From: Streptomyces sp. NBC_01497
GTDB taxonomy: Bacteria > Actinomycetota > Actinomycetes > Streptomycetales > Streptomycetaceae
Length of the DNA stretch: 64,000 bases
NCBI RefSeq assembly: GCF_036250695.1
Contig: NZ_CP109427.1
Location: forward strand, 8,246,001 to 8,310,000
Direction: 5' to 3'
The position numbers and the translations under genes are program-made. A model generated the notes under the pieces. It did not search any database and was not told the origin of the DNA. It worked only from the letters and a program-made list of their open reading frames with translations. Positions 45,862 to 55,476 of this stretch are shown in pieces (the stretch's first letter is position 1; each line of letters starts with the position of its first letter).

Positions 45862-46575
45862 TCAGCTGGGCTGGTCTCCCGTGTAGCGGTAGATCTCGTT
45901 GCCGCTGTTGATGTGCCACGCGTTGCCGTCGGCACCCGCGGCGACGTCAGTGGCGGTCCCGGGGATCTTGACCCACGGATTGGCGCCGCTGGCGTCGTTG
46001 TTGGTGTATCGGTAGATGCTGCCGGCGGGATCGACGCCCCACACGTTCGTCCGGGAGCCCACCGCGATGCGTTTGAGGCTGCCGGGGACGTTCACCCACG
46101 GATTTGAGCCGTCCTGGTCACCGGTGTACCGGAAGACCTGGTTGCCCCTGTTGACGCCCCACACGGTGCCGTCAGCGCCCGCGCCGATGTCACTCAGGGC
46201 CCCGGGGATCTTGATCCAGGGATTGGCGTCATGGTTCGTGTACCGGTAGATGGCGTCGGCGGAGTCCACCCCCCACACATTCGTCCTGGAGCCCGCGTCG
46301 ATGCGGACCAGGCTGCCGGAGATGCTCGGCCACGGATTCGAAGCACCCTGGTCCCCGGCATACCGGAAGATCTGGTGGCCCCCGTTGACGCCCCACACCG
46401 TGCCGTCCGACGCAGCGCCGATGTCACTCAGCGCCCCCGGAATGTTGATCCAGGGGTTGGCATCGTAGTTGGTGTACCGATAGATGGCGTTCGCCGCATT
46501 GACACCCCACACCGTTGTCCTGGACCCCGCCGAGATGGCAGTGAGACTGCCCGCGACCTTCACCCAATCCGCCAT
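45862..46575 (-). CDS. Six-bladed tectonin-like beta-propeller protein
   Basis: 237 residues made almost entirely of six repeats of 38-41 residues, pattern W-x-x-(I/V)-P/S-G-x-(L)...VWGV...(I/V)(Y/F)RY. Repeats alternate between type A (GSRTNVWGVDSADAIYRYTN) and type B (GADGTVWGVNRGNQVFRYTG), giving ABABAB. This is the tectonin/TECPR fold known in fungal and invertebrate lectins and some bacteria. No signal peptide or membrane helix is seen, so it is cytoplasmic or released by lysis. The ATG at 46575 follows GGAAAGGG. Sugar or lipid A-type ligands are known for the family; the ligand here is unknown. Confidence 0.88.
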   Translation of the reverse strand: MADWVKVAGSLTAISAGSRTTVWGVNAANAIYRYTNYDANPWINIPGALSDIGAASDGTVWGVNGGHQIFRYAGDQGASNPWPSISGSLVRIDAGSRTNVWGVDSADAIYRYTNHDANPWIKIPGALSDIGAGADGTVWGVNRGNQVFRYTGDQDGSNPWVNVPGSLKRIAVGSRTNVWGVDPAGSIYRYTNNDASGANPWVKIPGTATDVAAGADGNAWHINSGNEIYRYTGDQPS

Positions 46576-47312
46576 GCCCAAAACCCTTTCCATGAGCCGG
46601 TATTGAGTGTCATCTTCCGCGAAGAGACGGGGCAATAAGGTAGGCGAATGTTTGTCCTCATGCCAAACAAGACAGTAAATCGGTGTTTTGACTCTTATCG
46701 CCCCGCCGGGCGGGGGCATCAGGGCCTCGGCCGGAGGCATTCCGGCTGGAAGCGCTGTCCCACGCTGCGGGTATCGACACAAGCGCCGACCCATGCCTGC
46801 ACCGGGAGGGCCCCGCGCAACACCTCGGCCGGCACCGGCCTCGGCCGCCTGGCCGACGAGAGCCCGAATGAGGCCGGCGATCGTCGTTGAGCCACTCGTC
46901 CGCTGCACGGCGGCGCCGTCCGAGGCGGCTCCAACGTGTCGGAGTTGAAGATGAGCGTGAGGGACGGGCTCCATTCGCCACGTTGTTCTCGCGCCCGACG
47001 GGCAGGCTTTCATCCGGCCGCACCGGTCGCACCGGTCGCACCGGTCGCAGCGGCCGCAGCGGCCGCACCGGTCGCGCCACGGAGGGTGCACTCGTCGCCC
47101 CTGTCATTCTCGTCGCCCTGGACGCGCGTGCGGATTGGAGTGTCCTGGGTGCCCGTGCGGTGGCGCAGTGCGCAGGGGACGCCCGTCTCGCGCCAGTGGC
47201 GCGCGAGCTCACGCATCTCCAGCAGCTCTGCCCTGGGGGAGCGGCCCCGGTGCTGTGACCCAGCAGCGCCTCGACGAGAGCCGGCGAACCCGCATCGGCC
47301 TCCTCAGGGGAG
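46576..47312. other. Intergenic region with 9-bp repeats, no gene called
   Basis: 737 bases between two leftward genes. A 239-codon leftward frame spans most of it, but it is Arg/Pro/Ser-rich, has no domain and its repeat section follows the DNA repeat at 47021-47074, so I do not call it. Confidence 0.45.
47021..47074. repeat. 9-bp tandem repeat, six units
   Basis: CACCGGTCG at 47021-47029, 47030-47038, 47039-47047 and 47066-47074, with two CAGCGGCCG variants at 47048-47056 and 47057-47065. Each unit is a near-palindromic CCGGTCG/CGGCCG block. Confidence 0.92.
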
Positions 47313-48272
47313 TCAGCGGTTCTTGAACTCCTCGATGGCGTCCCGGAGTACGTGGCCCGCGGCGTCGCTTCCGGCATGCCCCGCGTCCTCGATGATGTGG
47401 AGCCGTGCGCCGGGCCACGCCTTCGCCAGTTCCCATGCCGTCCGGACCGGGCAGCCCATGTCGTGCCTGCCGTGCACGATCACCCCTGGAATCCCGGCCA
47501 ACTTGTATGCGTCACGGATCAGTTGATCTTCCTCCAGCCAGGCGCCGTTACTGAAGAAGTGCGCGCAGATCCGGACGAATGCGATCCGCGCGTCCGCCTC
47601 CCGGTCGCTGTACATGCCGGGGACGCCGTTGGGCTCGTCGGTGATGACGGCATCCTCCCAGGCGAGCCAGTTCGCGGCGGCCTTCTCGCGAACCGCATGG
47701 TCGGGGTTCTCCATCAGCCGCGCGTAGGCCGCGAGCAGTTCGCCGTCCCGCTCGCCCTCGGGAACGCCCGCGCGGAACCGGTCCCACGCCTCGGGGCGGA
47801 ACCGCCTGGCGCCCCGGTAGAGCCACTCGATCTCCGAGCGGCGACTCGTCATCACCGCCTGGATGACGATCTCGGTGACCCGTTCGGGGTACTGCTCCGC
47901 GTAGGCGAGGACGAGCGTCGGGCCCCAGGAGGCGCCGTTGAGCAGCCACTTCTCGATGCCGAGGTGTTCGCGCAGCGCCTCCATGTCGTCGATCAGGTGC
48001 CGCGTGGTGTTGAGGCTCATGTCGGTGGCAGGGTCGCTGGCGTGCGGGGTGCTGCGGCCACAGTTGCGCTGGTCGTAGCGGATGATCCGGTACGCCTCGG
48101 GATCCCAGGCCCTCGTGGGGCGTCGCGAGGCGCCACTCCCCGGGCCGCCGTGGACCATCAGGGCGGGTTTGCCCTGGGGGTTGCCGAGTTGCTCGTAGTA
48201 GACGCGGTTGCCGTCCCCGGTGTCGAGGAAACCGGCATCGTAGGGACGTGTCGGCGGATAGAGATCGACCAT
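47313..48272 (-). CDS. pip: Proline iminopeptidase-type alpha/beta hydrolase (S33)
   Basis: 319-residue cytoplasmic hydrolase that in this family removes N-terminal proline. HGGPGSGASRRPTRAWDPEAYRIIRYDQRNCGRSTPHAS (seen as MVHGGPGSG and YDQRNCGRSTPH) is diagnostic. The nucleophile elbow reads LNGASWGPTLVLAYAE, where GGSWG is usual, so Ala replaces Gly but Ser is kept. The acid is in VHGRHDMGCP and the His in IEDAGHAGS. The ATG at 48272 gives the family N-terminus LYPPTRPYDAGFLDTGDGN. Complete and stand-alone. Confidence 0.93.
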   Translation of the reverse strand: MVDLYPPTRPYDAGFLDTGDGNRVYYEQLGNPQGKPALMVHGGPGSGASRRPTRAWDPEAYRIIRYDQRNCGRSTPHASDPATDMSLNTTRHLIDDMEALREHLGIEKWLLNGASWGPTLVLAYAEQYPERVTEIVIQAVMTSRRSEIEWLYRGARRFRPEAWDRFRAGVPEGERDGELLAAYARLMENPDHAVREKAAANWLAWEDAVITDEPNGVPGMYSDREADARIAFVRICAHFFSNGAWLEEDQLIRDAYKLAGIPGVIVHGRHDMGCPVRTAWELAKAWPGARLHIIEDAGHAGSDAAGHVLRDAIEEFKNR

Positions 48273-48750
48273 GACCGCCGATCCTAACGAGCCCGTGCAT
48301 GGTTGGCGGTGGAGCGTCGAAGCCCGTGATCGCCGACCTTGGTGGCCGTGGAGAGGAATCGGGCACGCGCGGCAGCCGGCCGCAGCCGGCGGATCACCGG
48401 GCGGGCCCACAGCCGACGGATTGGTCGATTCGTCACGGATAAAGACCCGTTGTGGTGAGTGGCGCGAATGACACCAGGCCGGGCTCGCGTCACGTCCTCG
48501 CGCCGGCGGGGGCCGGGACGCAGCGGTGTGCTGAGCGTCTGTCGGGCCGGGGCAGGAACGGGGCTGTCGGCAGGGGAGGGGTGCCGCGAGGCATGGCGCG
48601 GCGGCCGGGAGGCCTGGCGGGCCTCGGTACGGCGAGCCGCGCTCCCCGCCCGGTCGGTGCCATTGCGTTTGGCGTGTGGTGTTCGCGGTCTCCCCTAGGG
48701 TGATGGATTCCCGTCATCGGAGCGCTGCGGCGCGGTAGGGCGACACCACA
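48273..48750. other. Divergent intergenic region, no gene seen
   Basis: 478 bases between the divergent iminopeptidase and DUF2236 genes. No RNA or conserved frame recognised. Confidence 0.4.
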
Positions 48751-49500
48751 ATGATCAGTGAGGCAGCGGCACACGAGGTCTACCGTCAGCTGGCGTTGCT
48801 CGACTTCCCCGAGGAAGTGCGCATGGGGCTGAACCTGGGCTTCTACCGTACGTTCGCCGTGCCCGGCATCGCCACGGTACTGACGACGACGGGCAAGATG
48901 ATCGAGCGGCCGAAGGAACGTGCGAAGGCGACCGGTGCCTTGATGTACAGCCTCATCGAGAACGGCCTCGACACGCCCGAGGGCACTTCCGCTGTGGCGC
49001 GCCTGACGGCCCTGCACGCTCATCTCCCGGTCGACGAGGCTGAGTTCGTGTACGTCCTGGGGGCGTTCTGTACCGCACCGCTGGAGTACATCGACCGGTA
49101 CGGGTGGCGGCCGGTCACACCTGCGGAACGGGAAGCCGCCTACGTGTTCTACGCGGGGCTGGGCCGCCGCATGGGAATAGCCGGTGTGCCGGGATCGTAT
49201 GCGGCACTGGAAGCTTGGATGTCCGACTTCGAGGTACGCACATTTGAGACGACAACCGAAGGCCGGGCGCTGCTTGAGGCCACCAGCGGCCTCCTGGCCT
49301 CGCGACTGCCACGCGTCCTCGCGCCGCTGGCACGCAGGGCCGCGGACACTTTGTTCGATGAGCGACTGCTGACGGCATTCGGGCGCAGGCCGGCACCCGG
49401 AGTGGCCCGATGGGCGATGCGGAGAGGACTCGCGTCGCGATCCCGGATCCTCCACGCGCGCCGACGCCTGAATGGCCCGGGCGGGCGGCAAGGAGCGTGA
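48751..49500 (+). CDS. DUF2236 / MpaB-like oxygenase family protein
   Basis: 249-residue mostly helical protein of the DUF2236 (MpaB/latex-clearing-like) family, some members of which are heme oxygenases. Visible family parts: MGLNLGFYRTFAVPGIATVLTTTGKM, RAKATGALMYSLIENG, VYVLGAFCTAPLEYIDRYGWRPVT and YVFYAGLGRRMGIAGVP with PGSYAALEAWMSDFE. Length is on the short side. It ends in a basic tail. Substrate unknown. Confidence 0.85.
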   Translation: MISEAAAHEVYRQLALLDFPEEVRMGLNLGFYRTFAVPGIATVLTTTGKMIERPKERAKATGALMYSLIENGLDTPEGTSAVARLTALHAHLPVDEAEFVYVLGAFCTAPLEYIDRYGWRPVTPAEREAAYVFYAGLGRRMGIAGVPGSYAALEAWMSDFEVRTFETTTEGRALLEATSGLLASRLPRVLAPLARRAADTLFDERLLTAFGRRPAPGVARWAMRRGLASRSRILHARRRLNGPGGRQGA

Positions 49501-49601
49501 CGTGGTCGGTGGCCTCCAGGCCACGTGTACCTCAGCCGGGCCGGGGCCCGAGGACCGTCGAATCGCCGGGGCCGTCGGAAAATCGTGTGCCGAACCATTC
49601 C

Positions 49602-50240
49602 ATGGACGTGCAGACTTGCTCTGTGGCGGACGTGAGGGAGTTCCGGGATGCGCTCACGGCTTGGGCGAAGGGCGGTCCTGACGGGCCGGCGCGCGACCTG
49701 GCGGAGAGCCTGGGGGCGCGCACCGCGGTGCTTCTGGAAGGGCTGAGTGATCTCGCCGCCGTCGAGGCGTTGGCCGCCGGGCGGGGTCGGGACCTGGCCG
49801 CCGAGGGAGTGGTTGCCGTGCCGATGGGCGGGGCGATGAGCGTGGGCCGTTACGCCCGCCTCCTCGGGCGGCCCGGCCTCGGCCTGCGTGTGACGGGACT
49901 GTGCGACGAGCGCGAACAGGGCTTCTACGAGCGTGGTCTGACACGGGTCCAGGCGCCGCCCGAGGACGTCCACGTATGCGCGGCGGATCTGGAGGACGAA
50001 CTCATCCGCGCGCTCGGCACGGCAGGAGTCGAGGAGATCCTGCACGCCGAGGGCGACTTCCGCGCCTGGCGGACCTTCCAGCGCCAGCCCGCACAGCGCG
50101 GCCGGGAGCTGGGCCAGCTGCTGCGGCGCTTCCTCGGCACGAAGAAGGGCCGCAAGATCCGCTACGGCCGTCTCCTGGTCGAGGCCCTCCCGCCGGACCG
50201 GACGCCGCCCCCGCTCGACGGCCTCCTCGCCGGGCTGTGA
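49602..50240 (+). CDS. Stand-alone OLD-like TOPRIM domain protein
   Basis: 212 residues with a TOPRIM fold like that of OLD-family nucleases but without their ABC ATPase half. Landmarks: the Glu in TAVLLEGLSDLAAVEALA, the strand VVAVPMGGAMSVGRYARLLG, the acidic GLCDEREQGFYERGL (DxD-like) and HVCAADLEDELIRALG. The C-terminal part AEGDFRAWRTFQRQPA... KKGRKIRYGRLLVEALP is conserved in actinobacterial homologues. Catalytic acidic residues appear present, so metal-dependent nuclease or nucleotidyl transfer activity is possible. No ATPase partner is adjacent. Confidence 0.82.
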   Translation: MDVQTCSVADVREFRDALTAWAKGGPDGPARDLAESLGARTAVLLEGLSDLAAVEALAAGRGRDLAAEGVVAVPMGGAMSVGRYARLLGRPGLGLRVTGLCDEREQGFYERGLTRVQAPPEDVHVCAADLEDELIRALGTAGVEEILHAEGDFRAWRTFQRQPAQRGRELGQLLRRFLGTKKGRKIRYGRLLVEALPPDRTPPPLDGLLAGL

Positions 50241-50585
50241 GGTCGTCGACCGTGCCAGTGGGTACACCGAGCGGGTCCGGGCAGCCCGGCAGGTGACCGC
50301 CGGTCGCATACGACCAGTCGGGATTCGAATCGATCAGCCACGGTTTCGCGGTGACGACCGCGCAGCCTCGCCCCGGTCCCCGTCCCTCCGCGGCTGAACA
50401 CCGATGAGCAGATCACACTGCCGACCATCCTGGACCACCTACGGGAGCCGGCCCTCGCGAAAGCGGCCGGTGTCCCGGAGCCCGAGGTGCACGGCCAGGC
50501 CGAGGAGACCTCCGGGACGTTCAGCCCCACCACGGGGACGCGTCGGTACCGTTCCCTTCGCGTACGGGTGGCCCCAGCCGGAGCG
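50241..50585. other. Intergenic with coding-like stretch
   Basis: 345 bases between convergent genes. From about 50390 to 50570 one rightward frame has gene-like third-position bias and reads LNTDEQITLPTILDHL and LAKAAGVPEPEVHG, but it lacks a plausible start and matches no family I recognise; it may be a gene remnant. Confidence 0.4.
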
Positions 50586-51899
50586 CTACGTGTCCGACAC
50601 TCGTCCGTTGCCCCCGCCTGCCGTCTGTGACGAGGGAGACAACCCGGTCAGGGCGGTGCGTCCGCGCGGTCCCGGTAGGACGAGTTGGCCGCTCGTGACC
50701 AGCATGAAGCGTTCCATGCCGGGGATGATCACGTTCAGGACGGACAGGTGGTCGCTCACATGACGCTGCCACACGCGCGGGGTGAAGCCCGCACGGTGCA
50801 GGGTCTCGCAGAGCGCCTCCAGGTACTCGGCCGGGGTGGCCGGGGCGGGCGTTTCGCTGAAGGGGATGCGGGCGGTCCGGGGGATGCGGAAGTCGGCCAG
50901 GTAGCAGCGGTGCAGCGCGGGATAAGCCTCAGTGCAGACATACCTGCGGCCCTTCTCGCCGGATGCGGCTCTCAGGCCGCTGTGTGTCTGGATCAGTTCG
51001 TTCAATGCCTGCTCTGCCGCGAAGCAGGCGGACAGAGAAGCGCCGAAGCCCCGCAGGAGGCTCGGCACCGCGGGCTCGGTCGCCGGGCTGTGGGCCCAGT
51101 AGGCGGGCACACCCACATCGGTGGTCATCTCCAGCAGCCACACCCGCCGATCGAGGCGACGTTCGGCCTCCTCGTGCAGAGCTGCCAGTGCTGCGGGCAG
51201 AGTGCCGGTGTCGATGACGGGCAGGGTGGCCGGGGCCGGGGAAAGGAACTGTCCGATCAACAGTATCGAGATGGCGTCGCGTTCGATGACTTCGTTGATG
51301 GCGTGGACCATCGCCTCGGCCGGAGTGGCCCCTGCGGCCCAGCCATTGGTGACGGAGTACCTACGCAGGGCCGTGTAGTCGTAGCTGTCCCCGGCGGCGG
51401 CACGCGCCGCCGCTTCCTGATGGAGGTAGTCCGGCGTGGACAGGAACACCGGCACGAGCATCTCGTCACCGGCGTGGCCGGGCAGGGGCGTGTAGGGCAG
51501 GCAGGCGATCGGGACGTCAGGGCCCTCGGCCAGCAGGGCACAGGCCGCGTCCCGCGCCAGTTCGCCGGCAGCCGCCTCGTGGGCACCGCGTAGCACGACG
51601 CTGGTCTGTGGCGGCATTCCGGCACTGAGGTGGTGTTCCAGCGCTTCGAAGATCGCCCCGACCCGGGCGGCCTGCCGTCGGCCCTTGCCGAAACCCGTTC
51701 CCCGCGTCACCGGCACGCCGTCCTGTTCGAGGACGCAGCGCCATGCGCCGGGTTCGTCCGTCGTCAGCGGATCGAGGCGGGCGCTGAAACCGAGTTCGGC
51801 CACGGCGACCAGACCGTGCTGCCACGCCTGGGCAAGGGGAACGCCCCGCTCACCGTAGTGCGGGACGTCGCTACGGGCGCTGGATGCTGAACTCGGCAT
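50586..51899 (-). CDS. YcaO-domain protein, probable RiPP-modifying enzyme
   Basis: 437-residue YcaO enzyme, the ATP-dependent family that forms azolines, thioamides or amidines in ribosomal peptides. ATP-site blocks are seen: GKGRRQAARVGAIFEALEHH (ExxE), NGWAAGATPAEAMVHAINEVIERDA (NEVIERD) and FAAEQALNELIQTHSG. The C-terminus ends GGNGRVSDT with no PxPxP motif, unlike azoline-forming cyclodehydratases; bottromycin-type and thioamide enzymes also lack it. The ATG at 51899 has GGGGAAGG upstream. A 50-residue peptide gene lies 82 bases upstream on the same strand. No E1-like or TfuA partner is adjacent, so it may act alone. Confidence 0.88.
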   Translation of the reverse strand: MPSSASSARSDVPHYGERGVPLAQAWQHGLVAVAELGFSARLDPLTTDEPGAWRCVLEQDGVPVTRGTGFGKGRRQAARVGAIFEALEHHLSAGMPPQTSVVLRGAHEAAAGELARDAACALLAEGPDVPIACLPYTPLPGHAGDEMLVPVFLSTPDYLHQEAAARAAAGDSYDYTALRRYSVTNGWAAGATPAEAMVHAINEVIERDAISILLIGQFLSPAPATLPVIDTGTLPAALAALHEEAERRLDRRVWLLEMTTDVGVPAYWAHSPATEPAVPSLLRGFGASLSACFAAEQALNELIQTHSGLRAASGEKGRRYVCTEAYPALHRCYLADFRIPRTARIPFSETPAPATPAEYLEALCETLHRAGFTPRVWQRHVSDHLSVLNVIIPGMERFMLVTSGQLVLPGPRGRTALTGLSPSSQTAGGGNGRVSDT

Positions 51900-51981
51900 G
51901 GCGAGGCCTTCCCCGGGAGGGCTGACAGGGCAACCGGTGGCGGGTGCGCGGCGTCTCACGGCTGCGTACCCGCCCGTCGCA

Positions 51982-52134
51982 TCACGCGCGGTGGGCCGCC
52001 GCCTCAGCCGTCTTCGGCTGCTCGGCGTCCTGCTCTTCCAGCTGATCCAGCAGTTGCTGCTCGCTGGCGAACAGTTTCACCTCGGTTGGAGGGGTGGGAG
52101 AGAATCTCCAGTTCTGCCCGAATACATCGCCCAT
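51982..52134 (-). CDS. 50-residue peptide, candidate RiPP precursor
   Basis: Short reading frame directly upstream of the YcaO gene with a strong AAGGAG site 6 bases before its ATG. The N-terminal half (MGDVFGQNWRFSPTPPTEV) is rich in Asn/Gln, aromatic and Ser/Thr/Pro residues. The C-terminal half (EQQLLDQLEEQDAEQPKTAE) is acidic and helix-forming. This order is consistent with an N-terminal core followed by a C-terminal follower, as in bottromycin and possibly streptamidine-type precursors, but a conventional leader-first order is not excluded. There is no Cys. The mature product cannot be predicted. Confidence 0.7.
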   Translation of the reverse strand: MGDVFGQNWRFSPTPPTEVKLFASEQQLLDQLEEQDAEQPKTAEAAAHRA

Positions 52135-52503
52135 GATCTTCTCCTTTGACGAGCGTTCGCGCCCCGTAGGCCTTCGGAGTCGTATGGCCTGCTGGGGCTC
52201 ATCAGTTGACGCCCGGCGACAGTCCACTGTCGGGGACAGCCACCCGGGCCGGGCCGGACACCCGGGACCTGCCCAGCCGGCGCACCTTCCAGCCGCATCC
52301 ACGGCACAGTCCACTCGCCCAGTCGAGCGCACGCACAGCGCACGACGTCGACCCACTGCGCCGTGCGTGCCCCACCCGATCAATCGCCTGAAACGCCACC
52401 GCGCGGTTGCCACGAGATGGGACGAGCTCACCGTCCGCCATGAGGCGACCGTCTTGTGGAAGCCCTCAACGAGTGGCTGTGACCAGCACGGTCGAGGGAC
52501 TTC
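52135..52503. other. Intergenic, no gene seen
   Basis: 369 bases between the candidate precursor and a VOC gene, all leftward. Should contain the promoter of the peptide-YcaO unit; no further small peptide gene recognised. Confidence 0.4.
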
Positions 52504-53196
52504 TCAGCTGTCCCGACCCTGCCATGTGGTCAAACAGGCTTCGTTCCCCTCCAGGTCGGCAAGTACCCAGAAAGCGGGGGCGCGGGTCGCGGACACAAGT
52601 CGGCCTCCAGCCGCCAGTGCGGTCTCGATCCGCCGGTGTGCCTCGTCATGCGGAACACATATGTCGAAGTGAATGCGATTGCGCTGTGGGCGCGCCCGGT
52701 CCATCTGCTGGAACCAGATGGCCGGGCCCTGCCCGACCGGGTCGATGAGCGGATCCTCCGGTCCCTCGGCACCCGCCTCATCGGTATAGCCCAGCACCGC
52801 CTTCCAGAACGGCCGAATCCCGGCGATGTTCAGTGCATCAACCGCGATCTCCAGAAGCTGGACGGACCGCGCTGCCCCGGTTCCGATCTCGGGCTCCGCC
52901 AGAAGCCCGAACCTGCCGGCGGTGGCGGATATCTGACGCGCGAGTTCAGCATCTCGGGCAGTAACCGCTGCGCGGTCCAACGACTGCAGAGTGAAGACGA
53001 CCCGATCCGAGCGGACATCGACCCGAAGGTGCTGGTCGGCGTCGTCGCCGCACACCGCGACCGCGTCCGCCGCCAAGCCCATCGCCTGAGTCAACGATCC
53101 GACCCGGACCGACGTTCGCAAACTGCCCAGCAAGAAGCGCCACCCGTCGTCCCGGACCGCATCCGATGCTTCCTGCCGACTCAATATCTGCTCCAT
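52504..53196 (-). CDS. PCD-like / glyoxalase (VOC) fusion protein
   Basis: 230 residues in two parts. The first 100 (ILSRQEASDAVRDDGWRFL, VAVCGDDADQHLRVDVRSDRVVFTLQS) resemble pterin-4a-carbinolamine dehydratase, including the HLRVDVR stretch, but with weak conservation of the usual catalytic His triad. Residues about 113-230 form a glyoxalase_6/VOC domain (VQLLEIAVDALNIAGIRPFWKAVLGYTD, IHFDICVPHDEAHRRIETAL and the end WVLADLEGNEACLTTWQ). This fusion recurs in actinobacteria; function unknown. ATG at 53196. Confidence 0.85.
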   Translation of the reverse strand: MEQILSRQEASDAVRDDGWRFLLGSLRTSVRVGSLTQAMGLAADAVAVCGDDADQHLRVDVRSDRVVFTLQSLDRAAVTARDAELARQISATAGRFGLLAEPEIGTGAARSVQLLEIAVDALNIAGIRPFWKAVLGYTDEAGAEGPEDPLIDPVGQGPAIWFQQMDRARPQRNRIHFDICVPHDEAHRRIETALAAGGRLVSATRAPAFWVLADLEGNEACLTTWQGRDS

Positions 53197-53884: not shown

Positions 53885-54572
53885 ATGATCGTTATGGACG
53901 CTCGTTTCCTTGGCATCGCTGATGTGGCCGAAGTCCCTTCCGTGGCGGTCGTGGTCGACGTCATGCGTGCTTTCACCGTGGCTGCCTGGGCCTGTGCCCA
54001 GGAGGCAGAGAAGATCGTCTTGCTGAGTCGCTGGACGAAGCCCTGGCGCTCAAGGCCCGCCACGGGGATTGGCTGGCGCTGAAGGATGGTCCGCCCGCGC
54101 CCGGGTTCGACATGGTCAACTCGCCTGGCCTGCTGCGCTCTGTCGACCTCGGCGGACGGACCGTCGTACAGAAGACCACGGCGGGGACGGTCGGCGCTCT
54201 CGCGGTCAAGGAAGCATCTCTGGTGCTGTGCGCCGGCTTCGTGGTGGCGGAGGCAACGGCTCGGCTCCTACGGGCACGCGAGTGTGACAGGGTCACGTTC
54301 GTCGTCACGGGCGAAGATGGGCAGGCCGATGAAGATCTGGCATGTGCTCAATACATCGCTCGCAGGGCCACCGAGGCCTGGACGGATGCTGCCGAGTTCG
54401 TCCGCCGCGCTGCCGCGTCACACGCCGCCATCGAGCTGGCGGAGGGGGTGCGTCAGGGAGTCCATCCCGATGACGTTGCGCTCTGTCTTGAGGTCGACCG
54501 GTTCCCCTTCGCCATGGTGGCGACCGTGGAAGGCCCGCTCATGGTCCTGCGTCCGCACGCGATGCCTTCGCC
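53885..54572 (+). pseudogene. comB: 2-phosphosulfolactate phosphatase family (ComB-like), frameshifted and fused at its end
   Basis: The family's order is visible in two frames. The first (53885 on) reads [34 protein letters not shown] and AEKIVLL. A one-base loss near 54024 (a G in CTG-GAG) shifts it, and the second frame continues with [45 protein letters not shown] and the acidic [21 protein letters not shown]. It reaches [16 protein letters not shown], near the natural end, then runs without a stop into transposon sequence. Known ComB makes sulfolactate for coenzyme M; in Streptomyces the substrate is unknown. Probably non-functional. Confidence 0.85.
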
Positions 54573-55476
54573 GACTGACGAGGACACCCGGCAGTCGGTC
54601 CGGTTCACCGCCAACGCCGGATGGAAGATCACGACCGGAGGGAAGCTCCGGCTGCCGAAGGTCGGTGACGTTCCGCTCAGGTGGTCGCGCTCCCTGCCGT
54701 CCACCCCGTCCACGGTGACCGTGCTCAAGGACAGCGCGGGACGGTACTTCGCTTCGTTCGTGGTCGCAACCGAGCCCGGGACGCTGCCCGCCACGGACAG
54801 CGTGGTCGGCGTCGACCTGGGACTGACGCACTTCGCGATCCTCTCGGACGGCACGAAGATCGACAGCCCCCGCTTCCTACGCCGGGCCGAGAAGAAGCTG
54901 AAGAAGGCGCAGCAGGATCTCAGCCGCAAGGCCAAGGGGTCGAAGAACCGGGCGAAGGCCCGGGTCAAGGTTGCGCGTGCCCACGCACGGACGGCCGATG
55001 CGCGGCGTGAGTTCCACCACCAGCTCTCCACCAAGCTGATCCGCGAAAACCAAGCGGTTGCAGTGGAAGACCTGGCGGTCAAAGGGCTCGCCCGCACCCG
55101 CCTCGCCAAATCCGTGCACGACGCCGGATGGTCGGCGTTCACCACGATGCTGGAGTACAAGGCGGCGAAGTACGGCCGCACTTTCATCCGCATCGGACGC
55201 TTCGAGCCGACGTCCCAGGTGTGCTCGCAGTGCGGCGTCAAGGACGGCCCCAAGCCCCTGCACGTCCGTACGTGGACATGCAGGGCCTGCGGCGCCCACC
55301 TGGACCGGGACATCAACGCGGCGGTCAACGTCGCCAAGGCGGCCGGACTGGCCGTATCAGCCTGCGGAGCGCGGGTAAGACCGGGACTCGTCCCGGCACA
55401 GCGCGAAGAAACAGGAACCCACCCGAAGCCCCAGCCGGCGACCACCGGCAGACAGACGGGAATCTCCGTCCTTTAG
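54573..55476 (+). pseudogene. tnpB: IS200/IS605-family TnpB, N-terminally truncated and fused to ComB
   Basis: About 300 residues matching the middle and end of Tnp[36 protein letters not shown], then the RuvC blocks [17 protein letters not shown] (Asp), [14 protein letters not shown] (Glu) and the final [14 protein letters not shown] (Asp), with the zinc ribbon CSQCGVKDG...WTCRACG. All catalytic residues and four Cys are kept. The normal N-terminal 110-120 residues (recognition part) are absent, and the frame continues from ComB, a single frame open from 54112 to 55476. No tnpA is adjacent. Likely inactive as a guided nuclease. Confidence 0.9.

Follow-up and report, generated by a model that had tools for sequence, protein, structure and literature searches.

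Can one short peptide and a single YcaO enzyme form a complete system for a ribosomally synthesised and post-translationally modified peptide (RiPP), and what would the enzyme do to the peptide? The question is raised by a locus of Streptomyces sp. NBC_01497, in a 64,000-nucleotide stretch of contig NZ_CP109427.1 (positions 8,246,001 to 8,310,000 of the forward strand; hereafter the window, numbered from its first letter). Here, a gene for a 50-residue peptide precedes the gene of a standalone YcaO. The pair is real and not a chance arrangement. Its conservation, and the layout of the peptide as a Met-Gly start, a variable core and a follower, are well supported and very probable. Kinship with the bottromycin enzyme BtmF makes it likely, on balance, that the two genes form a RiPP system in which the YcaO closes an N-terminal (macro)amidine, with a mass change of -18 Da.

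The peptide and YcaO genes

The peptide gene (51982..52134, minus strand) was assigned from its start codon, its Shine-Dalgarno (SD) sequence and the family alignment. It begins with ATG at 52134 and runs to a final codon at 51985-51987 and a stop codon at 51982-51984, encoding the 50 residues MGDVFGQNWRFSPTPPTEVKLFASEQQLLDQLEEQDAEQPKTAEAAAHRA. The SD sequence, AAAGGAG (52141..52147, minus strand), is read directly in the DNA six bases 5' of the ATG. The YcaO gene (50586..51899, minus strand; ATG at 51899, stop at 50586) follows on the same strand, 82 bases after the peptide stop. This is the arrangement described in the original prediction, a peptide gene with a strong ribosome-binding site ahead of a YcaO gene.

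The YcaO is a standalone protein of 437 residues, in a clade adjoining BtmF, and matches the Pfam YcaO family with an E value of 8.7e-38. Its C-terminal end reads VLPGPRGR...SDT, where VLPGPRGR is the last conserved block, and carries no PxPxP tail. TfuA has no match in the whole genome, and the scan of window genes surrounding the pair, the only place where an E1-like protein was looked for, gives neither an E1 partner nor an exporter. Within this scope, the tail and the partners are missing as described in the original prediction. The whole genome also contains no PqqD-type protein with a RiPP recognition element (RRE), and this YcaO is its only one; hence a second, BtmE-type thiazoline YcaO was not found. 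Across 50200-52600, neither a sigma-70-type promoter nor a terminator was detected.

Conservation of the peptide beside the YcaO

Relatives of the YcaO were gathered as 96 proteins and four genomic loci, and a profile from an alignment of 50 of the 96 was run on whole genomes with a cut-off of E <= 1e-50. It matches 10 of 392 genomes of the genus Streptomyces, including the window genome and two bottromycin loci, and 8 of 394 genomes in a sample of the class. Matches are found in 57 of 297, 20 of 249 and 15 of 150 genomes of the families of G520, G1035 and G1037, respectively; the five samples overlap partly. The 85 clade loci that we analysed comprise eighty fetched regions, L003-L006 and the window, with twenty further listed places left out; L006 and L096, which have an identical peptide and probably come from one genome, are both counted. 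As controls we used 52 other Streptomyces YcaOs, hand-picked for spread.

Searched with an iterated profile, 51 of the 85 loci show a short peptide immediately 5' of the YcaO, so that the co-occurrence of peptide and YcaO homologues, proposed as a check in the original prediction, is borne out, and the refuting case named there, a peptide that is not conserved beside YcaO homologues, does not apply. Three loci were added by eye: L092, with the peptide downstream of the YcaO, L102, with two copies, and L127. Of the 1,218 frames in the 64 kb window, a profile built without the window peptide scores this peptide best, with an E value of 0.004 against 2.3 for the runner-up. With a profile of the follower only, at a threshold of at least 10 bits, matches occur near the YcaO in 49 of 85 loci. 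Elsewhere in the same loci, 1 of 16,550 frames matches, and this is the true L092 peptide; the control YcaO loci give 0 of 52 (same strand, upstream). An SD-like word lies 5' of all 51 profile-found peptides, whose starts are 47 ATG and 4 GTG. Synonymous change per site exceeds nonsynonymous change in 27 of 29 related peptide pairs (L128/L129 show the opposite and L135/L136 equal values), and the peptide is thus shown to be under coding constraint.

The peptide alignment has 54 rows (the 51 profile-found peptides, both L102 copies and L092; L127 was left out). Met1 and Gly2 are invariant in all 54. The segment after Met is weakly conserved, spans 14-22 residues from the Gly and occurs in 48 distinct versions. 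It is followed by columns with the spacing LxxxExxxL (L in 52, E in 53 and L in 47 of the 54 rows) and by C-terminal ends that are mostly acidic. In the window peptide, the putative N-terminal core comprises residues 2-20, GDVFGQNWRFSPTPPTEVK (52075..52131, minus strand; boundary approximate), of which only the Gly2 column is invariant. The putative C-terminal follower, residues 21-50 (51985..52074, minus strand), is defined by the conserved columns and reads LxxxExxxLxxL (L21, E25, L29, L32). An invariant Gly, variable residues next to it and a conserved tail are most simply read as an N-terminal core with a reactive Gly amine and a C-terminal follower, in agreement with the bottromycin-like layout of the original prediction.

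Since the profile had been seeded with Met-Gly peptides, we chose the starts again by SD strength alone. Gly is then at position 2 in 48 of 49 peptides; the remaining one starts at a GTG further upstream, within a long frame where an SD-preceded Met-Gly start also occurs. Within the variable segment, Asp is enriched at core positions 4-8. It is found there in 40 of 48 distinct cores, where shuffling predicts 22 (a count as high is reached in 0 of 5,000 shuffles), and, when cores of the GxxVD[YF] type are excluded, in 22 of 30, where it predicts 12.7 (reached in 1 of 5,000).

The database relatives of the peptide family number 40, and all of them are either unnamed or called hypothetical or uncharacterized protein. 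Our literature search found no paper on the peptide/YcaO family; the unlabelled precursor networks in the supplements of PMC8442711 may include such peptides.

Other peptides of the clade

Two further groups of peptides were recognised by eye. Type II peptides, at 13 loci (L072-L075, L104-L112), lie upstream of the YcaO and start with MAC or MGC (MACAGYDL..., MGCAYKF...). Type III peptides, at 7 loci (L076, L077, L114-L117, L138), start with MGNSN or MASNS, as in MGNSNSNG..., and all five that were compared have an LxxxExxxL-like pattern, which arises in 16-32 of 1,000 shuffles. All of these peptides begin with Met-Gly or Met-Ala; the host methionine aminopeptidase acts before Gly or Ala.

Three of the 85 loci are bottromycin loci: those of genomes G335 and G267, which match the profile distantly within the genus sample, and L134 (G1283), with precursors starting MGPVVVFDC.... 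L134, a bottromycin-type locus from outside the genus sample of the window, has the same GPVVVFDC core, and its follower ends slightly differently. At L119, L130, L131, L132 and L141, the match to the YcaO profile stops at position 398 of 425, before the VLPGxRG tail, and no peptide is recognised; decay or a changed function is possible for these loci.

Relationship to BtmF

In G335 and G267, the second YcaO after the precursor, which, given the order of the bottromycin genes, we take to be BtmF, scores 216-223 bits with the clade profile. The first YcaO, presumably BtmE, scores 53-55 bits, and the 52 control YcaOs score between -0.1 and 91 bits. In blastp comparisons, the window YcaO aligns with BtmF over 376-438 residues (E about 1e-27), and with BtmE at 25-28% identity over about 245 residues (E about 1e-5). 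By sequence, BtmF is thus closer than any other characterised YcaO that was compared, which makes the comparison with bottromycin an apt one.

A midpoint-rooted tree of 77 YcaO rows is consistent with this. BtmF, the YcaOs of five of the seven type III loci, L134, L139 and L140 form one clade (99/98). The window clade has a support of 90/98, and the 28 control YcaOs included lie beyond a branch supported at 100/98.

By their titles, two 2017 reports (Franz; Schwalen) reportedly concern macroamidine formation catalysed by a divergent YcaO. According to PMC5103208, BtmF and the amidohydrolase BtmI are needed for the macroamidine in S. scabies in vivo, BtmE is implied in thiazoline formation, and bottromycin cyclisation depends on removal of Met. 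There, this removal is ascribed to the M17 peptidase BtmM, an MGP start being a poor substrate for host enzymes.

Proposed mechanism and alternatives

In the mechanism that we propose, the ribosome would make the 50-residue precursor, and the general methionine aminopeptidase of the host would take off Met1 and free the Gly1 amine, as expected from the established specificity of this enzyme. A Met-Gly start without Pro would explain the lack of need for a dedicated aminopeptidase. The LxxxExxxLxxL follower, judging from its conservation, may dock the precursor on the standalone YcaO. By analogy with BtmF, an amide of the backbone close to the N-terminus would be activated by the YcaO with ATP and attacked by the Gly1 amine; loss of water would give an N-terminal amidine ring. 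A guess from bottromycin puts the likeliest acceptor at residue 4 or at the residue preceding the conserved Asp/Asn. The follower would later be removed by host or unlinked proteases, perhaps by a proline-iminopeptidase-like hydrolase in some lineages.

The product need not be an exported antibiotic. The modified peptide could instead act inside the cell, as a signal or effector in a module for regulation or conflict, a role compatible with amidine chemistry; in Nonomuraea/Streptosporangium-type bacteria, it would act with a nearby NACHT-type nucleoside triphosphatase (NTPase). We consider this role possible, if rather improbable, and the evidence for it comes from the genes around the pair. 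Neighbouring frames of at least 90 residues within at most 7.5 kb were clustered for the 51 profile-found peptide loci; the counts are lower bounds, because the YcaO itself was recovered in only 46 of 51. Besides the YcaO, seemingly antisense frames and groups of 3-8 loci, one gene recurs widely. It lies downstream of the YcaO in 19 of the 51 loci; the distance between the two gene starts is no more than about 2 kb in 18 of them and about 4 kb in L078. The sole scanned member of this group (L083:4203-6377, minus strand) encodes a NACHT/STAND-type NTPase.

The NACHT-linked loci belong to one bacterial family, for which the gene found nearby in 19 relatives hints at a role inside the cell. GNVVDY, a motif at the N-terminus, is fairly conserved in the NACHT-linked group, and the clustering reveals no exporter among the conserved neighbours. 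However, no NACHT gene is present among the window genes scanned, and the cores outside the NACHT-linked group vary strongly, more like diversifying products. An assignment of the NACHT-type gene to a known defence system is unsupported, as the PADLOC matches are weak.

Two other YcaO reactions have to be weighed against amidine formation. Introduction of a backbone thioamide, for example at Gly1 or at the residue before the Asp, needs no Cys, Ser or Thr and could account for the conserved Gly. This reaction is nevertheless quite unlikely here, given that TfuA was not found in the genome and that the nearest characterised relative among the YcaOs compared is an amidine enzyme.

Among the YcaO reactions characterised in RiPPs, azoline formation on Ser, Thr or Cys, known from linear azole peptides, is the most frequent, and the window core offers Ser12, Thr14 and Thr17 as residues that could form azolines. 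It contains no Cys. Across the family, Cys, Ser and Thr are all missing from 6 of the 48 distinct cores, of which two are near-identical and which include those of L004, L118, L121 and L125; in 21 of 48, all three are missing from the first 10 residues. Azolines, an option in the original prediction, can therefore not be the shared reaction of the family. The missing PxPxP tail and the lack of an E1 partner among the window genes scanned also speak against them, and we regard azoline formation by this YcaO as very unlikely. ATP-dependent cleavage of the peptide, suggested by the PDB title of 7u58, which gives the related YcaO protein MusD a YcaO-mediated ATP-dependent peptidase activity, is extremely unlikely in view of the BtmF kinship, of the invariant Gly1, which points to the N-terminus, and of the 54-row alignment, where no conserved cleavage motif is seen between core and follower.

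Formation of an N-terminal amidine by a two-gene system has its own difficulties. BtmF sits on a long branch in the tree, and its identity to the window YcaO is just 30-32%. The BtmF clade and the window clade are joined apart from BtmE with a support of 84/78, and the position of BtmE is unsure because its branch is very long. In vivo, BtmF works with BtmI, whereas neighbour clustering of the 51 loci, a lower-bound method, gives no partner common to the family. The window core lacks the Asp at positions 4-8 and has Asn7 instead. When the window peptide was searched as a single sequence against 100 genomes (its own and those of 99 relatives), it matched only itself, and for this reason the family was approached via the YcaO.

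Further difficulties come from the rest of the clade. No peptide is recognised in 8 of the 85 loci. The type II peptides compared, from four of the 13 loci, all lack the follower motif. For type III peptides, 0, 15, 29 and 115 of 1,000 shuffles score as high with the follower profile, with no score for L115. The likeness of the follower to those of two bottromycin precursors is weak, as 57 and 107 of 1,000 shuffles score as high.

Comparison with known systems

The window system shares with bottromycin a Met-Gly start, a standalone YcaO and, as far as conservation indicates the layout here, an N-terminal core and a C-terminal follower. Both BtmF and the window YcaO have a VLP-G-R-type tail, and Asp7 of bottromycin falls within positions 4-8, where most family cores carry Asp. 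In contrast to bottromycin, there is no BtmE-type YcaO, and the window core, being free of Cys, is unrelated in sequence to GPVVVFDC. The methyltransferases, P450, amidohydrolase and M17 peptidase are not among the window genes scanned, and in an NCBIfam scan NF033414 matches neither the window peptide nor its genome. The window system is not a bottromycin pathway; by analogy, the ring-closing step may be alike.

With streptamidine, the window system has YcaO amidine formation in common, shown there and proposed here. As described in PMC8442711, the precursor AmiA has an internal HLSATH core between a leader and a follower, and its family is marked by an ALV motif. The YcaO, AmiD, has a Pro-rich tail, and the pathway needs AmiB (which has no known domain), AmiC and AmiE as well as iron-type transporters. 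ALV is absent from the window peptide and from the conserved columns, the window YcaO has no Pro-rich tail, and a Pfam scan of window genes around the pair shows neither streptamidine-type iron/ABC transporters nor a flavin dehydrogenase (AmiB was not searched for). We therefore reject membership in the streptamidine family, and with it the streptamidine-like product offered in the original prediction. The comparison with AmiA/BmbC-type precursors that had been suggested there fails for AmiA; the bottromycin precursor agrees in its start and, as far as conservation indicates, in its layout, the follower showing little likeness by shuffling.

TfuA-associated thioamide YcaOs (thioamitides, McrA) likewise have no E1 partner, the difference being the TfuA that the present genome lacks. 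The cyclodehydratases of cyanobactins and linear azole-containing peptides (LynD, TruD, McbD) share the YcaO fold and the ATP-binding motifs with the window YcaO, which differs from them in having no fused E1/RRE domain or PxPxP tail, and several cores of its family have no Cys, Ser or Thr. In two earlier reports, standalone YcaOs other than those of bottromycin are left out as uncharacterised (PMC4603692) or standalone YcaOs are not considered (PMC7136475).

Neighbouring genes

A proline-iminopeptidase-like alpha/beta hydrolase (47313..48410, minus strand; match to 1qtr, 1.6e-90) is encoded about 2.2-2.4 kb downstream of the YcaO, past two opposite-strand genes, and may be an accessory. The statement that no protease or exporter is adjacent stands for the next genes, and for exporters among all genes scanned; it has to be qualified by this hydrolase gene. 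Of the 85 loci, 4 have a similar gene 3' of the YcaO and in the same orientation: the window and, within 350 bases, L120, L074 and L104; two of the four are close relatives. None is found in the 52 control YcaO regions, where the flanks are shorter. Membership of the hydrolase in the system is possible, and is a lead.

The window contains three other genes of interest. A small OLD-like TOPRIM-domain protein is encoded at 49410-50240 (plus strand), convergent with the YcaO gene, and a Tectonin-repeat protein at 45862-47091 (minus strand; Pfam Tectonin, 1.1e-66). The open frame at 54112-55476 (plus strand) matches 2-phosphosulpholactate phosphatase over its first 100 residues and a TnpB/IS605 OrfB-type protein thereafter; this is perhaps an insertion-derived fusion.

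Implications

Amidine-containing RiPPs are few; bottromycin, klebsazolicin and streptamidine are the only ones named, as of 2021, in PMC8442711. The combination of one YcaO and one peptide with hypervariable cores would provide many natural substrates with which to probe how BtmF-type enzymes choose the residue for ring closure. The NACHT-linked branch would raise the question of whether some of the peptides act inside the cell.

A bolder and tentative proposal, improbable when taken as one joint claim, is that these loci are many actinobacterial variants of one two-gene system and represent a new RiPP class. In this class, a BtmF-type YcaO alone would close an N-terminal macroamidine, independently of Cys, Ser and Thr; the cores would be hypervariable, with Gly first and, in most cases, Asp/Asn within positions 4-8. 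In one lineage the amidine peptide would be the ligand of the neighbouring NACHT NTPase, and bottromycin would have branched off, as one elaborated antibiotic, from an older peptide system acting inside the cell.

The pair looks like a very small route to ring-modified peptides that recurs in many soil bacteria. If amidine formation is indeed its chemistry, it would allow N-terminal macroamidines to be made with a minimum of genes, and bottromycin would be placed inside a wider family.
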